Of a stretch of 64,000 nt of DNA, positions 49,785-57,732 are shown one piece after another. The stretch's first letter is position 1. The number at the start of each line of letters is the position of its first letter. The stretch lies in the NCBI RefSeq assembly GCF_012927085.1, contig NZ_JABBFX010000002.1, positions 496,001 through 560,000 on the forward strand, given 5' to 3'. Source of the stretch: Ramlibacter agri. Lineage in GTDB: Bacteria; Pseudomonadota; Gammaproteobacteria; Burkholderiales; Burkholderiaceae_C. The notes below the pieces were generated by a model. It was not told where the DNA came from. It did no database searches and saw only the letters and a program-made list of their open reading frames with translations. The translations under genes were made by a program, and so were the position numbers.

Positions 49785-51413
49785 TCAGGCAGGCGCCGTG
49801 GCGCGGCGCAAACCGGCGCGTGTCGGCGCGGCCGGGCGTTGCCGCGCAGCGGGAGCCCCATGGGCTGCGCCCGCGAACACGCCGACCGCCAGCACCAGGT
49901 CGCCGGTCTGCAGGGCCAGTTGCGCCACCGCGCCCGCGACGTCCTGCACCATCTGGGCGTTCTGTTGCGTGGCCTGGTCCATCTGCACGACCGCGTCCCC
50001 GACCTGGGCCACGCCGGTGCTCTGCTCGGCGCAGGCCGCGCTGATCTCCTCCATCAGCCGGCTGACGCGGCGCACGCTCTCCACCACGTCCGCCGTCGTC
50101 CCGGCCGCGCCCTGCACCCGGTGCGCGCCCTGCTCCACCTGCTGGAGGCTGTGCGCGATGATGGACTTGATCTGCTTCGCGGCTTCCGCGCTGCGCCGCG
50201 CCAGCGCCCGCACTTCCGCCGAGACGACGGCGAAGCCCCGGCCCTGCTCGCCGGCGCGCGCGGCCTCCACCGCCGCATTGAGCGCGAGGATGTTGGTCTG
50301 GAAGGCGATGTCGTCGATCAGGCCGATGATGTTCGCGATCTGCCCGGCGCTGTCGCGGATGCCCTGCATGGTGTCGGCGACGGCGCCGACCGCCGCTCCG
50401 CCCTGCAGGGTGGTCTCGCTGGCCGAGCGCACCAGGTCCATCGCCCGCTGCGCGCGCTCGGCATTCTGCTTGACCGCCGCTGCCAGTTCCTCCATGGAGG
50501 CGGCCGATTCTTCCAGCGCGCTCGCCTGATGTTCGGTGCGCGCCGCCAGTTCCTGGCTGGCGCGGTGCAGGCCGGTGCCGCTGGCGTCGACCGCGTGCGA
50601 GCGCTTCACGACGTCCTTGACCAGCGAGCGCAGGTTCAGGTTGGCCTGCGTGGTCGCACGCGCCAGCATGCCGATCTCGTCGATCCGGTTCAGGTGCAGT
50701 TCGGCGCAAGCCTGGCCACGGGCGGACAGTTCGGCTTGCGCCAGGATGCGCTGCAGCGGCCGGGCGACCTGCGCCTCCAGCATCCAGCAATTGAGGAAAG
50801 CGCCCAGCAAGGCGAGCGCGCCGGCCTGCGCCACGGTGGCTGAAGGCAAACCGCCAGCGAGCATCGCGGCGACGGCCAGCGCCAGCCCGCCCAATGCGGC
50901 CAGCCGGATGCGCCATCGCAGCGGCATCACCTGGAGCCAGGACGTCCATGCCAGCAGGCCGGTGCGCACGGCCACGCCCTTGCGCAGGGCGGTGCCGCGC
51001 GCAGTCCCATTGCGCAGCCGCGCGTAGAGGGCTTCCGCCGCTTCGACCTCCTGCCGCGTCGGCGTCACCCGGACCGAGGTGTAGCCGGTGATGTGCCCGT
51101 CGCGCGTGATGGGCGTCGCGTTGGCGCGCACCCAGTAGTGGTCGCCGTTCTTGCGGCGGTTCTTGATCATGCCGGTCCACGACTCGTTGCCGCGGATGGT
51201 CGCCCACAGGTCGGCGAAGGCCTCGCGCGGCATGTCCGGATGGCGCACCAGGTTGTGGAATTCGCCGGTGAGCTCCTCCCGCTCGAAGCCGCTGGCCTGG
51301 ATGAAGTCGGGGTTCACGTAGACGATGCGGCTCTCCGTGTCCGTGATGGACATGATGATCGCGTCGTCGGCAAGCCGGTGTTCTTGCTGGGTGACGGGCT
51401 GGTTGTTTCGCAT
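49785..51413 (-). CDS. Aer-like methyl-accepting chemotaxis protein with N-terminal PAS domain
   Basis: 542 residues. The PAS domain at about 15-115 ([46 protein letters not shown]) is typical of aerotaxis and redox receptors. Two membrane segments lie at about 165-205, HAMP at about 207-265, then a signalling domain with the hairpin tip [40 protein letters not shown]. No periplasmic sensor loop of size, so it senses an internal redox or energy state, probably through FAD or haem on the PAS domain. GAGGAG precedes the ATG. An FNR-like box sits about 66 bases upstream. Confidence 0.92.
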
Positions 51414-51514: not shown

Positions 51515-51916
51515 CTAGCTTCCGGCGTGCACCCGGGCCTGCATGTCGCGGCAAGCCAACGAGATCAGGTGCATCAGCGCCTCGGAATCGACCTCGCGTC
51601 CGGGCCCGAGCTTCACGTGGCGCATGAACTTCCCGGTGCCCTCCAGCAGGCTCGCGGGATCGGGCAGCTGTGCACCGAGGAAGAAGCCCACGTCCACGTG
51701 GGCTTTGTAGACAGCGACGTAAGCAAATGCGGCGTCGGCGACACAGGCGGTGGCCTGGCCGTCGTGCATCAGCTCCCGGATGTCGTCGCCGCAGGCGCGC
51801 AGCGTTTCGAACCAGTGGCGTGCGATGGCGCCCAATTCGCCAGGCCGCTCGTGCAGCCAGGCGGAGACGGCAGGGTCCTGTTTGACAGCGGTGGCGAAGC
51901 GGAACAGCCGATCCAT
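51515..51916 (-). CDS. DUF1801 domain-containing protein
   Basis: 133 residues, cytoplasmic. The stretch FAYVAVYKAHVDVGFFLGAQLPDPASLLEGTGKFMRHVKLGPGREVDSEALMHLISLA is the DUF1801 (YdhG-like) core. The first 40 residues are a helical lead. Structure of relatives resembles frataxin-like or iron-chaperone folds, but function is not established. The ribosome site is weak. Confidence 0.82.
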   Translation of the reverse strand: MDRLFRFATAVKQDPAVSAWLHERPGELGAIARHWFETLRACGDDIRELMHDGQATACVADAAFAYVAVYKAHVDVGFFLGAQLPDPASLLEGTGKFMRHVKLGPGREVDSEALMHLISLACRDMQARVHAGS

Positions 51917-51940: not shown

Positions 51941-51967
51941 GCGGTGCGCAGCAAGCTGCGCACCCTA
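51941..51967. repeat. REP-like palindrome, single copy, overlapping the end of the glycosyltransferase gene
   Basis: GCGGTGCGCAG and CTGCGCACCC flank the AGCTTGCT-type core, seen in reverse orientation. Its last three bases (51965-51967) supply the stop codon of the leftward glycosyltransferase gene, so the repeat borders or has trimmed the coding end. Confidence 0.85.
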
Positions 51968-54649
51968 AGACGGCGCATGACCGGCCGGCTGGCCGTCCAC
52001 GGTGTTTCCGGGACCGTCCGGCGGCGCCCAATGCGCGTCGGGCGGCGTCAAGTAGACCGGGCCCCAATGGTGCTCGGGCGGGATGGAGAAGCGCATGCCC
52101 TCCACCTCGTTGTGATGCGCATAGCCGCCGTGGAAGTTGACGTCGACGTTGCTGGACACGTTGCGGATGCGGTTGAACGCGGAGCTCCATTGCAGCGCGA
52201 TGTGGCGGATGTTGCGCACCGTGCCACCTTCCACGAGTCCGCGGTAGCTGCGCGCGATGCGCAGGTAGCCGCTGCCCTGGTCGCCCTTGTTCCAGGCGCC
52301 ATCGAGCAGGATGTCGCGCACGCGGAAGCCGTAGCTCTGCTCGATCAACAGCGGATGCCGGCCGGCGTCGATGACGCCCACGCGCTCGATGTCGGCATCC
52401 TGCGTCCACAGCAGCGAGATGGCGTCGACCGCGAAGTCCGGCAGCACGTTCTCGTACACGTGTGACACGCTGGCGATGGCGCGACCATCGGCCAGCTGCT
52501 GGATGCTGAAGTCCGCCAGCTGCACGCCGCGCACCGGCAAGGCGCGCGCAACTTCGGTTGTACTGGCGTCGAAGGACACTCCCGAAGGTTCGGAAAGATG
52601 CACGCCCGCGGCATCCACGCTCTCCACGCGCAGCAGCGCCTGCCGCAGGTAGGGATACTTGCGATTCCAGCGCTGGCTGCCGATGGAGTGCAGGAAGGCG
52701 TCGTCGTTCGGCTCGCGCAGCCACAGCAGGTCCCCGGGCTGCACCTGCAGCCGGCCCGTGACCCGCACGAGCTTCTCGTCCGGCCCCAGCGCCTGCGCCA
52801 GGCGCGCCGTGCGCTTGCCTTCTTCGCCCAGGACCTGGATCACGGCCGGCGCCGGCGCCTGCAGGTGCGACACGATGCGGGTCCGCTCGCGCCCCGCGCC
52901 GACGATGCTGACGCCGTCGCGCCGGATCACCAGCGGCTGCTTGAAATCCAGCACGCCGGCCGGCAGCCGGATCGCCACCGGCCCCGGCGGCTGGCGGTCC
53001 AGCCAGGCCTGCAGCGGCGCCGCGTCGTCCTGGCCATCGTCGGCCCGCACCCCGGGCGGCACCGTGCCCGCGGGCTGCGGCGCGGTCGCGGCGTTGGCGG
53101 GCGTCACCAGCCATGCCGTGGACGAAGGGGCCAGCCAGCCCGCAGCCGGCAGCCGCAGCGCGCTGTGCGTCAGCAGGATCACCAGGCCGAAGGCCACATA
53201 GGCCGTGAGCATCGTCGCCGTCGGCGCGAGCCGCCGCAGCAGGCCGCCCTTGGCCGCCACCGCCTGCCGGCCCCTGCCCTTGCTCCAGCTCTGGTCCGAG
53301 AGGTGGTGCCAGGCGCGGATCTTGACGATGGCGCCGATCCAGTGCGTGTAGAGCATCAGCGGGATCGTGCGCCAGGTCACGCCGTGGCCGTTGGCCGCGA
53401 TCACCGCCACCTGCACGGTGCGCACGAGCGCCGCCCAGGCGATGTACAGCGGCAGGAAGATCGGCGACTTGGTGAGGGCCATGACGGTCGCGCCGGTGAT
53501 GCCGACCAGCGAGGTCCACATCGAGATGCGCTGGTCCAGCAGCACCAGCCAGATGAACCAGCCGGTGCGCCACGGCCCCAGGGCCAGCGCCCGCGGGTTG
53601 TTGCGCATGGTGTTGCCGAACCAGCGATACGGCAGCTCCACGCTGGCGCGCAGGAAGCTCGTTTCGCGGCTTTCCAGCGAGACCACGCGGACATCCGGCA
53701 GGTACAGCATCTTCCAACCGCTTTGCAGCACGTGGAACCACGAGCTCTTGTCGTCGCCCATCAGGAAGCGGAAGCGGCCGTGCAGCCAGTGGTCGATGGT
53801 GTCGTGCTCGATGCGCTGCAGGAAGTCTTCCTGCACCACGATGCCGGTGCGGAAGGCCGAGAAGCGGCCGGTCAAGGTGAGCACCTTGTGCGACAGGCTG
53901 TGCGACTGGAACAGCACGTGGCGCTGGCCGAACTTGAGCGCGAACCAGTCGCGGTACCAGGCATCGCGGCCCGGGATGAAGGCCGTCTCGTCGGTGGTCA
54001 GCGCGCCGAGGTCGCGGAAGGCGGCGAAGAAGGGCAGCACGCGCGCCAAGGTGTCGGGCGCGAGCCAGGTGTCGCCGTCCATCAGGATGGTCACGCTGTC
54101 CGGCTCATCGTCGTGGCGGCGCGCCACGGCGCGCAGCGCATGGCCCATCGCGATGCGCTTGCCCTGGCTCTGTCGCTGGAACACCAGTTCCACCTTGTCG
54201 CGCGCGGGGTGGGCGTTGACCGCGGCGGCGATGACCGCTTCGTCCTCGTCGCTGCCCACGGCCGCCACGATGGTCGCCTTGCACGGCAGCGCGGCGATGT
54301 TGGCCATCAGCGCCTGCGTCGCCTCGGTGCTGACCCAGGCTTCCTCCAGGTAGGAAGGCACGACGATGAAGATGCGCTCCGACGTGCGCCCGCTGTCGGC
54401 CACGCGCTCCGCCGCCGCGCGCAGGCGCGGATAGTGGATCAGCGCATACCAGGCCGCGCGCAGGTAGTGCACCACCTGCCAGCCATAGCGCCAGAAGGCC
54501 AGCACGCCGAAGGCAAGCAGCACCTTGACGTGCAAGGGGTGCAGGCCTGCGCGCGCCCAATAGAGGAAAGCGTAGCTGGAAGTGCCGTACAGCAGGATCG
54601 GCAATACCGCGGAGCGCAGCGCCTGCAGGCGGGCGGAGCGCGCGGTCAT
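51965..54649 (-). CDS. Alg8-like glycosyltransferase fused to a C-terminal right-handed beta-helix domain
   Basis: 894 residues against roughly 490 for Alg8. Part 1 (1-500): two N-terminal membrane helices (about 10-30, 40-60), then a cytoplasmic GT2 domain (90-345) with FIVVPSYLEE, the DGDT motif at 191-194, TTDETAF, and MGDDKSSWF at 297-305, which resembles the Alg8 motif. Further membrane helices lie at about 363-415 and 476-497. Part 2 (535-870): a pectate-lyase-like beta-helix with repeated strands such as GVSIVGAGRERTRIVSHL, VQLADFSIQQLADGRAIASVSHVYENV and NIRHIALQWSSAFNRIRNV. It probably polymerises an acidic sugar and acts on or holds the chain in the periplasm. It overlaps the alg44-like stop. 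Confidence 0.85.
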   Translation of the reverse strand: MTARSARLQALRSAVLPILLYGTSSYAFLYWARAGLHPLHVKVLLAFGVLAFWRYGWQVVHYLRAAWYALIHYPRLRAAAERVADSGRTSERIFIVVPSYLEEAWVSTEATQALMANIAALPCKATIVAAVGSDEDEAVIAAAVNAHPARDKVELVFQRQSQGKRIAMGHALRAVARRHDDEPDSVTILMDGDTWLAPDTLARVLPFFAAFRDLGALTTDETAFIPGRDAWYRDWFALKFGQRHVLFQSHSLSHKVLTLTGRFSAFRTGIVVQEDFLQRIEHDTIDHWLHGRFRFLMGDDKSSWFHVLQSGWKMLYLPDVRVVSLESRETSFLRASVELPYRWFGNTMRNNPRALALGPWRTGWFIWLVLLDQRISMWTSLVGITGATVMALTKSPIFLPLYIAWAALVRTVQVAVIAANGHGVTWRTIPLMLYTHWIGAIVKIRAWHHLSDQSWSKGRGRQAVAAKGGLLRRLAPTATMLTAYVAFGLVILLTHSALRLPAAGWLAPSSTAWLVTPANAATAPQPAGTVPPGVRADDGQDDAAPLQAWLDRQPPGPVAIRLPAGVLDFKQPLVIRRDGVSIVGAGRERTRIVSHLQAPAPAVIQVLGEEGKRTARLAQALGPDEKLVRVTGRLQVQPGDLLWLREPNDDAFLHSIGSQRWNRKYPYLRQALLRVESVDAAGVHLSEPSGVSFDASTTEVARALPVRGVQLADFSIQQLADGRAIASVSHVYENVLPDFAVDAISLLWTQDADIERVGVIDAGRHPLLIEQSYGFRVRDILLDGAWNKGDQGSGYLRIARSYRGLVEGGTVRNIRHIALQWSSAFNRIRNVSSNVDVNFHGGYAHHNEVEGMRFSIPPEHHWGPVYLTPPDAHWAPPDGPGNTVDGQPAGHAPS

Positions 54650-56040
54650 GACCAGGGCAGCGAGGGGTTCCGGATCCAGACGTTCACGCGCGCATTGGCC
54701 GGCAGCCGCACCTGGCGGTCGTCGAAGTCGACCTTCACCAGGGTCTGGTCGAGCCCGCCCTCCTGCGTGACGGCGGCCGCCGCCGAAGCCGCGGCCAGGC
54801 CGATGGCGGAGATCCGCGCCGGATACTGCCTGTTCTCGAAGGGCACCGCCACCGTGGCCGGCATGCCGGGCCGCAGCTTCACCGCGTCCTCGTTGGGCAG
54901 GCGCAGCAGCACGCTGGGCGTGACGTCGGCCTCCAGCAGCACCACCGGGTCGCGCGCGGCCACGAACTCGCCGTTCACGTGCTCCACGGTGAACACCTTG
55001 CCCTTCATCGGGGCGCGCACGATGCTGTCTTCGTCCTGGCGCGCCAGCAGTTCCTTCTTGGCCGCCAGCTCCAGCTGCAATCGGCTCAGGTTGTCGGAGG
55101 CGTTGATGCTCTGGCTGTGCGTGGCGCTGTCGGCCACCTGCCGCAGGTAGTCGTTGCGCATGGCTTGCGCCTGGTCGTTCACCACCAGCATGTCGCGCTG
55201 CGTGATGACGCCGGCTTCGTACAGCTTGCGCGCGTTCGCCAGTTCGCCCTGGCGGTCGGCCCAGTTGCGCCGCAGCGAATCCAGCAGGCCGGCATCGGCG
55301 CCGCGGCGCTCGCGTGCGAGGCGCGCCTGCTCGGCGACCAGCAGCGCGATGTGCTGCTCCAGCGCCCGCACCTCGGTGCGCAGCTGCGGGTTGTCGACCG
55401 TGAACAGCGCCGTGCCCGGCTCCACGCGCGAACCAGGCTGTACGAGCAGTCGTACAAGCTGGCCGTCGTGGTTGGCGGTGACGCGCGCAATGCTGCCGCT
55501 CGCGAAACCGGTGCCCTGCAACTGGTATGTCAAGTTGTACCAGACGATGCCCACCGCCGCGCCCACCACCGCCAGGCCCAGCAACACTGCGCCGGCCATG
55601 CGCGCGCGATTCGGGCGCGGCAGGCCTTCGCCGCCTTGCAGCAGCAGCGGCGCGTGCACCGGCGTGCCCGTGCCCGGCAGCGCGACCACCGCGACGATGT
55701 CGTCGACCTCGCCCAGCTTGCCGTCCAGCGACAGCTCGATGTAGTGGCGCAGGATGCGCCGGTTGCGCGGCGACAGCTCGTGGAACTCGAAGCCGTGCAC
55801 GCTGCCGTGGCGGCTGCGGTAGGCCAGCTGCACCGGGATCAGCAAGGTCGAGTCGCGCATCGGGAAGCTCAGCCTGGCATCGACGACCTCGCCGGGCTGC
55901 GGGACGGGCTCCAGGTCGGTGAGGCCCACGCCGGTGGTGGACCAGTCGTGCGCCGCATGCGTGCGGCCGGCGATCTCGACGTGCAGCGGGATCGCGACCC
56001 GCATCGCCTTGCGTGGCAGGTTCGCTTCGCGCGAAATCAT
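54646..56040 (-). CDS. Alg44-like c-di-GMP-binding (PilZ) membrane-fusion protein
   Basis: 464 residues. The N-terminal PilZ domain has an intact c-di-GMP motif set, R10-K-A-M-R14 and D32-W-S34-T-T-G37. A single membrane helix lies at about 148-170. A HlyD-like periplasmic part follows, with lipoyl half GSIARVTANHDGQLVRLLVQPGSRVEPGTALF, a long alpha-hairpin (about 225-335) and the returning half IVRAPMKGKVFTVEHVNGEFV. Same plan as alginate Alg44, which activates Alg8 on binding c-di-GMP. First gene of this two-gene operon; its stop overlaps the glycosyltransferase start. Confidence 0.9.
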   Translation of the reverse strand: MISREANLPRKAMRVAIPLHVEIAGRTHAAHDWSTTGVGLTDLEPVPQPGEVVDARLSFPMRDSTLLIPVQLAYRSRHGSVHGFEFHELSPRNRRILRHYIELSLDGKLGEVDDIVAVVALPGTGTPVHAPLLLQGGEGLPRPNRARMAGAVLLGLAVVGAAVGIVWYNLTYQLQGTGFASGSIARVTANHDGQLVRLLVQPGSRVEPGTALFTVDNPQLRTEVRALEQHIALLVAEQARLARERRGADAGLLDSLRRNWADRQGELANARKLYEAGVITQRDMLVVNDQAQAMRNDYLRQVADSATHSQSINASDNLSRLQLELAAKKELLARQDEDSIVRAPMKGKVFTVEHVNGEFVAARDPVVLLEADVTPSVLLRLPNEDAVKLRPGMPATVAVPFENRQYPARISAIGLAAASAAAAVTQEGGLDQTLVKVDFDDRQVRLPANARVNVWIRNPSLPWS

Positions 56041-56229
56041 GGCAGTGCTCCCTCTGGATTCGAGAGCGCATGGTCACAAGTGCAACAAATGCGGCGCCAC
56101 CGGAATTGACTCGACCAGTCGTAGGAGCCTGCCTACTCCGCAAACAGATGCGCAAGAGCCGACGCGCGCCCGGCCCGCGGCCTAGCCTGTGCGTTCGCCG
56201 CAGACGCATGCGGAGGGAGTACTGCAGCA
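56041..56229. promoter_or_regulatory. Divergent control region between the Alg44-like gene and ugd
   Basis: The 189-base gap holds the promoters of both directions. A small inverted repeat GTAGG (56121-56125) / CCTAC (56132-56136) lies near the middle. GGAGGGAG lies 10-17 bases before the ugd ATG. No clear sigma-54 or AlgU-type promoter was recognised. Confidence 0.4.
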
Positions 56230-57732
56230 ATGAACGTCACCATCATCGGGACCGGCTACGTGGGCCTGGTCACCGGCGCCTGCCTCGCCGAACTGGGGAA
56301 CAACGTGTTCTGCCTCGACGTCGACCAGGCCAAGATCCACCTGCTGAACGCGGGCGGCATGCCGATCCACGAGCCGGGGCTGGAGGAGATCATCGCGCGC
56401 AACGTGGAGGAAGGACGCCTCGTGTTCTCCTCCGACCCCGCCGCGGCCACCGCCTTCGCCGATGTGCAGTTCATCGCCGTCGGCACGCCGCCCGACGAGG
56501 ACGGGGCCGCGGACCTGCAGTACGTGCTGGCCGCCGCGCGCAGCATCGGCCGCCACATGCAGGGCTTCAAGGCCGTCGTCGACAAGTCCACGGTGCCCGT
56601 GGGGACGGCGGAAAAGGTGGCGGCCGCGATCCGCGAGGAGCTGGCCGCACGCGGCGCCGACATCGAATTCGCGGTGGCGAGCAACCCCGAGTTCCTGAAG
56701 GAAGGGGCGGCAGTGGAGGACTTCATGCGGCCGGACCGCATCGTGCTGGGCGTGGACGAGACGCCCGCCGGCGAGCGCGCGCTCGCTTTGCTGCGCGAGC
56801 TGTACCGCCCGTTCAACCGCAACCACGAGCGCACGCGCGTGATGGACGTGCGCAGCGCGGAGTTCACCAAGTACGCTGCCAACGCGATGCTGGCCACCCG
56901 CATCAGCTTCATGAACGAACTGGCCAACCTGGCCGACCGCGTCGGCGCCGACATCGAGCTGGTGCGCCAGGGCATAGGCTCCGACCCGCGCATCGGCTAC
57001 AGCTTCCTCTATGCCGGCACCGGTTATGGCGGCAGCTGCTTCCCCAAGGACGTCGACGCGCTGTGCCGCACCGCCAGCGAGAACGGCCATGGGCTGCAGA
57101 TCCTGGATGCAGTGCAGCGCGTGAACCAGGCGCAGAAGAAGGTGCTGCTGGAGAAGGTCTGGGCGCAGTTCGGCCGCCGGCTCGCGGGCCGCTCCTTCGC
57201 CGTGTGGGGGCTCGCCTTCAAGCCCGGCACCGACGACATGCGCGAGGCGCCCAGCCGCTCCATCATCGAGGCGCTGCTGCGCGCCGGCGCCACGGTGCGC
57301 GCGCACGACCCGGTGGCGCAGGAGCAGGCAGCGCGCGCGCTGGCCGGCGACCTGGCCGACCATCCCGAGCTGCTGCGCAACCTGACCTTCGTGCCCAAGC
57401 CGCTGGATGCCGCGCAAGGCGCGGATGCACTGATCGTGCTGACCGAGTGGAAGAGCTACAAGAGCCCGAACCTGCGGGCGCTGCGGGAGGCCTTGCGTTC
57501 ACCGCTGGTGCTGGATGGGCGGAACATCTATGACCTGCACGCGATGGCGGCGGCGGGGCTGACGTACCTGGGGATCGGGCGGAACAACCTGGCGTTGTTG
57601 AAGGAGCAGATGCAGGTCGCGCCGATCACGGTGGCGAACGAGGTCACCAGGGAGGAGCCGATCGAGGTGCTGGTGGAGCTCGCGGCGCAGGCGGCCGCGG
57701 AGACGAAGGCGCTCGGCGAGGAAGCATCCTGA
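56230..57732 (+). CDS. ugd: UDP-glucose 6-dehydrogenase (GDP-mannose dehydrogenase family)
   Basis: 500 residues. The NAD motif GTGYVG is at the N terminus, SNPEFLKEG and [20 protein letters not shown] follow, and the catalytic Cys lies in [33 protein letters not shown] leads the UDP-binding domain. It makes UDP-glucuronate (or GDP-mannuronate if AlgD-like); the family cannot be told apart with certainty by eye. It is divergent from the Alg44-like/glycosyltransferase operon, the natural consumer of an activated uronic acid. A C-terminal tail of about 45 residues (Ala/Glu-rich) goes past the usual length of roughly 450. Confidence 0.88.

Follow-up and report, generated by a model that had tools for sequence, protein, structure and literature searches.

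A 64,000-nucleotide stretch of the 7.2-Mb genome of Ramlibacter agri (contig NZ_JABBFX010000002.1, positions 496,001 to 560,000), called the window below, carries a compact group of genes with the features of a locus for polysaccharide synthesis and export. Its central gene codes for a fusion protein (P0001), in which a synthase of glycosyltransferase family 2 (GT2) related to Alg8 is continued by a C-terminal beta-helix. The gene for an Alg44-like adaptor (P0002) lies directly upstream and overlaps the ATG of the fusion gene by 4 bases (ATGA). Because of this overlap co-transcription of the two genes is likely; the initial annotation, made from the letters of the DNA, had asserted it, which is more than an overlap demonstrates. 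A UDP-glucose dehydrogenase (UGD) gene (P0003) stands back to back with the adaptor gene, as that annotation described. It overlooked a candidate for the outer-membrane component, the OEP/TolC-family gene P0004, which co-occurs with the fusion in all 13 Ramlibacter genomes that carry it. Coordinates are collected in Table 1.

Table 1. Features of the locus, in positions of the window
Feature	Positions	Strand	Basis or remark
Fusion protein P0001, 894 aa: Alg8-family GT2 synthase and C-terminal beta-helix	51965..54649	-
Synthase part, residues 1-500 of P0001	53150..54649	-	Pfam, alignment, hydropathy
Beta-helix domain, residues ~533-882 of P0001	52004..53053	-	weak model and homolog alignment
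Alg44-like P0002, 464 aa: PilZ, hydrophobic segment, HlyD-type adaptor	54646..56040	-
PilZ domain of P0002: RxxxR (R10, R14), DxSxxG (D32, S34, G37)	55735..56013	-
121-residue stretch between the two lipoyl halves of P0002	55027..55389	-	predicted to be helical
UDP-glucose dehydrogenase (UGD) P0003, 500 aa	56230..57732	+	homology; divergent from the Alg44-like gene
OEP/TolC-family outer-membrane protein P0004, 431 aa	48472..49767	+	convergent with the fusion gene
Inverted repeat GTAGG-N5-TCCTAC, candidate operator	56121..56136	.	between the two start codons
Gene for PAS-domain methyl-accepting chemotaxis protein (PAS-MCP)	49785..51413	-	between the fusion and OEP genes in the window
DUF1801 gene	51515..51916	-	between the fusion and OEP genes in the window

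All 894 residues of the fusion are encoded by a single frame (54649-51965, minus strand), so that synthase and beta-helix do belong to one protein, as had been claimed. P0001 was matched in 13 of 60 Ramlibacter genomes, R. agri included. The fusion forms one open frame in nine of these carriers, the window among them; it is cut by contig ends in three (G434, G437, G438) and interrupted in the last (G457), where the frame changes between residues 699 and 702, and these four were left out of the full-length fusion sets. Only R. agri itself matches the fusion in a sample of 399 genomes of the order (threshold 1e-20), and among 299 genomes of the family (1e-5) it is accompanied by just two weak matches, one of which (L029) is a beta-helix protein standing alone, its start resembling a signal peptide. 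Among 274 genomes of the class, the same fusion occurs in two members of the family f230 (G1321 and G1209) as an 882-residue frame, 55-56% identical to the window protein in the synthase and 41-43% in the beta-helix. An assembly error joining two genes, the possibility raised against the fusion at the outset, is ruled out, because the fusion is present in genomes that were each sequenced on their own: nine of the 13 carriers in the genus and two of another family. Because it is found in 13 of 60 genomes of the genus, two distant f230 genomes and few others, the fusion is rare and patchy, yet old and kept, and by sequence comparison its conservation across genomes exceeds chance. Ratios of nonsynonymous to synonymous substitution rates (dN/dS) lie below 1 in both halves in four pairs (synthase 0.30-0.46, beta-helix 0.33-0.57); with all pairs at a dS near 0.5 and the GC content very high, they are weak evidence.

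Membership of the synthase part in the Alg8 family is borne out by GT2 models of Pfam, which match residues 93-345, and by 35.5% identity over 428 amino acids to Alg8 from a canonical Pseudomonas alg operon. One synthase profile was built without the window row; profile matches with E below 1e-90 occur in 23 other genomes of 398. The segments D191-G-D193, G298-D-D300 and R342-W343 are invariant in a five-row synthase alignment; D191/D193, D299/D300 and R342/W343 we take to be the acidic and RW motifs of processive GT2 enzymes. The synthase begins with a hydrophobic stretch and has further hydrophobic segments near residues 375-399, 401-419 and 480-498, the first of which passes the hydropathy threshold in three orthologs and not in the window row. 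In a tree that includes the window row, the 11 fusion synthases all fall into one group (100/100), to which none of the 23 other Alg8 relatives belongs, and three UGD-linked synthases of the family f60 form a separate group; the tree has no distant outgroup, its root is not fixed and some of its long branches may be falsely joined. Judging from the separate position of the f60 synthases, the use of UGD with Alg8-type synthases therefore does not follow one branch.

The C-terminal part of the fusion was predicted to be a beta-helix, and an AlphaFold model together with its VIA-align comparison supports that fold at low model confidence (predicted local distance difference test, pLDDT, 57; predicted template modelling score, pTM, 0.45). 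PF12708 matches residues 508-894 in orthologs below its cut-off (E 3e-4 to 4e-3), and the homolog L091 just passes it (27.1 bits, cut-off 27); the C-terminal domain of the window protein itself matches no beta-helix family above its Pfam cut-off. Sequence searches of the PDB with the fusion and its parts gave nothing decisive: the beta-helix is matched best by an alpha-1,3-glucanase (E 0.016-0.019) and by mannuronan epimerases (0.24-0.26), in both cases over no more than the first 60-85 residues of the domain. Nineteen residues are invariant across 18 beta-helix rows, the window row included, among them N787, K788, Y795, R815, H816, N826, D836, N838, H840, N847 and H860. Relatives of the domain are stand-alone proteins, for example of Thermus, Vibrio, Streptomyces and Agarilytica, and all five examined have signal-peptide- or lipoprotein-like starts. 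Hydropathy and these starts together are the reason for placing the beta-helix, provisionally, in the periplasm, after the last membrane segment. Two stand-alone relatives (L036 and L091) lie in Vibrio-type uronate-degradation loci, which tips the balance slightly toward a uronate lyase rather than an epimerase. That the fused domain processes the polymer had been suggested from the start; its predicted fold and its invariant polar residues agree with this, and enzymatic action on the polymer is plausible, still short of proven.

Two other origins of the domain were considered and rejected. No relation to AlgG, the comparison proposed in the initial annotation, appears in either direction: the AlgG query matched no fusion locus at E 1e-3, and the reverse query no algG locus at 1e-4. 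Against a phage tailspike origin, a search of 50,697 phage records at 1e-3 gave nothing, although tailspikes head the weak list of structural similarities of the model. The beta-helix query also has no match at 1e-4 in 20 neighbourhoods of other Alg8 relatives. Among the relatives, L036 (117-17079) and L091 place the domain beside lyase and porin genes and are a good source for finding an activity, and a 40%-identical Thermus thermophilus plasmid protein annotated as hypothetical (L032, 9869-11011), with a lipoprotein-like start, may suit structure work as it comes from a thermophile.

P0002 carries PilZ and HlyD/lipoyl domains (Pfam), and its PilZ residues R10, R14, D32, S34 and G37 are intact, as reported before. 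RxxxR and [DN]xSxxG are present in all 16 aligned adaptors, including all 12 from fusion loci; G457, whose frame ran on to 1043 residues, and G430, cut by a contig end, were left out of this set. Between the lipoyl halves, 11 Ramlibacter rows have a stretch of 121-124 residues and f230 has one of 122; two Pseudomonas-type rows have 29 residues there, Rhizobium Alg44 has 6 and an f60 row 86, which sets P0002 apart from the short-stretch Alg44 of Pseudomonas (121 vs 29 residues). The stretch probably forms a helical hairpin of the adaptor type, as in TolC-docking adaptors. All 12 fusion-locus adaptors, and none of the four others, contain a segment of the form A-[RQ]-x-L, with R in 10 rows and Q in 2, and I-[ST] after it. 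This segment resembles the RLS motif of TolC-docking adaptors, in the definition that we take to be the usual one; the name of the motif appears in a figure legend of PMC8277102. The adaptor would thus be expected to fit a TolC-type channel. In a plasmid set, P0002 has no relative at 1e-10.

P0004 begins with a signal-peptide-like stretch, and its link to the fusion is one of inheritance and position. A profile of five OEP orthologs finds the protein in 13 of 60 genomes of the genus, identical to the 13 of the fusion, and in one of 299 genomes of the family, namely R. agri itself. In 11 of the 13 carriers the orthologous gene runs convergently up to the fusion gene or a C-terminal piece of it; the exceptions are the window, with its two intervening genes, and G434, whose fusion piece is on another contig. 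The order of Alg44-like gene, fusion gene and convergent OEP gene is kept in the other family (L089, and L090 up to the contig end), and in L089 a 27%-identical OEP-like protein (E 5e-40) takes the same convergent position. PF02321 (OEP) matches six of ten orthologs at E up to 1, one of them above the curated cut-off (24.6 bits vs 22) and two in two stretches.

Regarding the sugar donor, P0003 matches the UGD structure 2y0e at 1e-207 and the GDP-mannose dehydrogenase (GMD) structure 1mfz at 2.9e-57. A UGD gene lies beside the locus in 12 of the 13 carriers and the contig ends in the remaining one. Homology searches found no GMD in the R. agri genome or in G1321 and G1209. R. agri has one other relative of P0003 at 1e-5, with 28% identity, to which Pseudomonas AlgD is 26% identical; G1321 and G1209 each have one 59% UGD and one 28-29% relative. 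Because of the UGD match, its linkage and the lack of a detected GMD, UDP-glucuronate is the likely donor. On the same grounds alginate is an unlikely product, and "alginate-like" fails as a description of the polymer. Around 20 other Alg8 relatives (four more matches, G867, G1010, G1032 and G966, were left out), 14 neighbourhoods have a GMD-type gene, three (f60) a UGD 55-57% identical to P0003, and three neither. The Alg8-like synthases of L066, L070 and L078 have no UGD or GMD match in the surrounding 20 kb. That AlgK and AlgE lie outside the window held true: tblastn with Pseudomonas AlgK, AlgE, AlgG and AlgI gave no match at E 1e-3 in the 64 kb (AlgX, AlgJ, AlgL and AlgF were not queried), and none at this threshold in 12 related loci, of which several are short.

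The region between the two divergent start codons measures 189 bp in the window, and GTAGG-N5-TCCTAC is kept in six of six aligned orthologous regions; this repeat is a candidate operator of some regulator. It is present in 54 of 59 genomes of the genus, mostly more often than a reversed control. Other copies lie near response-regulator-like frames and near a WecB-like frame, and in G406, which has no fusion match, a copy stands 84 bases upstream of a UGD gene. No sigma-70-type site turned up in the 189-bp region when it was scanned for consensus promoters.

Taken together, we consider it on balance probable that the locus encodes a c-di-GMP-gated exporter made of synthase, adaptor and OEP protein, which secretes a glucuronate-containing polymer and keeps a lyase or epimerase tethered in the periplasm. 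In this four-gene, compact version of synthase-dependent secretion, the UGD, going by its family, would supply UDP-glucuronate, which the Alg8-family domain would polymerise while threading the chain through the inner membrane. Cyclic di-GMP (c-di-GMP), bound by the PilZ domain of the adaptor, whose motif is present, would turn synthesis on. The long hairpin of the adaptor may dock on the genetically linked OEP/TolC-family protein, and the resulting conduit would replace AlgK and AlgE. The periplasmic beta-helix would meet the nascent chain and cut or epimerise it. The earlier suggestion of a compact c-di-GMP-activated exporter of an acidic polysaccharide is supported in this form, with the gating read from the PilZ motif. 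A stronger version, a distinct export class in which a processive synthase, an OEP/TolC conduit and a tethered enzyme editing every nascent chain yield polyglucuronate, trimmed or containing L-iduronate, is possible and rather speculative; if true, bacteria would have in it a counterpart of alginate made from UDP-glucuronate.

Several observations weigh against the proposed exporter. The window OEP protein stays below the PF02321 cut-off (E 0.046), OEP profiles match nothing in the PDB, and the AlphaFold model of the protein is weak (pLDDT 58, pTM 0.30), with two helices of 66-67 residues, and too poor to establish a TolC fold; among its best 50 VIA-align rows there is no TolC chain, and these rows show helical hairpins from many unrelated proteins, including HlyD, EmrA and MacA. 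The PAS-MCP and DUF1801 genes part the OEP gene from the fusion in the window itself; they are not seen at this junction in the 11 other carriers in which it is readable. (Two Pseudomonas-type loci, L081 and L082, have a 34%-similar PAS-MCP adjacent to algD.) The argument from linkage to the donor is weakened on two counts: UGD is widespread among Ramlibacter genomes (39 of 60 at 1e-80), and in the 20 kb examined at the locus of G1321 no UGD turned up. The beta-helix model is weak, and the invariant set leans on seven distant rows, the other 11 of the 18 being close relatives. Periplasmic placement rests on hydropathy: the segments over threshold after the GT domain number two in the window row (401-419, 480-498) and three in each of three other rows, and residues 428-446, if counted as a membrane helix, would flip the beta-helix to the other side.

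Some of these points feed directly into alternatives. The OEP gene could have no part in the module and belong, for instance, to an efflux system, with export through another outer-membrane protein; it lies on the opposite strand, 2.2 kb and two other genes away from the fusion in the window, but an identical distribution over 13 of 60 genomes, abutment in 11 of 13 and the same order in another family make this improbable. Still less credible is an alginate synthase fed with GDP-mannuronate by an undetected dehydrogenase. Similarity of the synthase to Pseudomonas Alg8 and the GMD-type genes near most of the fetched Alg8 relatives speak for it, but the homology searches that found no GMD, the UGD as conserved neighbour and the lack of AlgK, AlgE, AlgG and AlgI relatives in the loci searched speak for another product.

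Two further alternatives are unlikely to a lesser degree. The beta-helix may be non-catalytic and serve to bind the chain as it emerges or to guide it on to the adaptor and the channel in the outer membrane, as would suit a model that has no well-resolved active site and a window domain that matches no characterised family above the Pfam cut-off; we rather doubt this, since K788, Y795, R815, H816, D836, N838 and H840 are invariant with the stand-alone relatives of Thermus, Vibrio, Streptomyces and Agarilytica, a pattern typical of an active site. The product may instead be a heteropolymer of glucuronic acid (GlcA) and a second sugar, hyaluronan- or cepacian-like, built from two donors or with glycosyltransferases encoded elsewhere. 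Class I hyaluronan synthases use two donors, but Alg8 relatives make a uronate homopolymer, and the contig of the locus has no second PF13641 glycosyltransferase (other glycosyltransferase families were not searched). The extracellular polysaccharide (EPS) of R. tataouinensis is described as a decasaccharide repeat with one glucuronic acid, and the chemical assay in the same paper detected no uronic acid (PMC9658432). G453, a genome of the genus that may belong to this species, has no match to the fusion, so that the EPS may be another product. We regard a heteropolymer, too, as not very likely.

The closest known counterpart is the Alg8-Alg44 system of Pseudomonas and Azotobacter, with which the locus shares a same-family GT2 synthase, a PilZ-HlyD partner and an adjoining dehydrogenase. 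It differs in having UGD in place of GMD, a fused beta-helix instead of AlgG, a longer stretch between the lipoyl halves, an OEP protein for AlgK/AlgE and no AlgI relative in the loci checked. In three f60 operons (L064, L065 and L073) a UGD also adjoins an Alg8-type synthase, and L065, to which the Pfam analysis was confined, encodes a PilZ-HlyD partner along with PL14 and PF05426 lyases. These operons have separate lyase genes, a Sel1 protein with similarity to AlgK and an unfused synthase in another branch of the tree; they (L065:1989-12210, also L064 and L073) probably represent a second UGD-linked Alg8 system. The PL14 and PF05426 lyase families include some glucuronan-active enzymes. Sequence-level membership of the beta-helix with RbmB, K1 lyase, AlgE4/AlgE6 or pectate lyases was not found, and here the domain is joined to a synthase. 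Atypical alginate operons without algKE likewise lack the canonical outer-membrane genes, but show no synthase-beta-helix fusion or TolC-type partner in the part of the source available, whose main text never mentions TolC (PMC7112194).

The available parts of the R. tataouinensis EPS and genome papers do not mention the locus (PMC9658432, PMC3164672), and titles and abstract openings of the open-licence PMC literature gave no description of the fusion locus or of its combination of genes. We therefore rate the parts as members of known families and their combination as a variant of synthase-dependent secretion not found described in that literature. The fusion would show synthesis and modification of a polymer united in one polypeptide, and the locus could give a route to uronate polymers from UDP-glucuronate. 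For export, the nearest parallel is the cyanobacterial XcsA-XcsB-TolC model of cellulose secretion, likewise a proposed tripartite route of synthase, HlyD-like adaptor and TolC-type channel; as far as its text was available, the source (PMC12430437) calls this model unvalidated, one reason being that no single operon unites the genes. In the model for Thermosynechococcus vulcanus the XcsAB-TolC genes lie scattered and the synthase carries PilZ (PMC12430437), whereas here the genes are linked, the adaptor carries PilZ and GlcA is the predicted sugar. Since the parts for synthase export through a TolC-type channel and HlyD-like adaptor are genetically linked and co-inherited in Ramlibacter, simple deletions can put this kind of export to the test.

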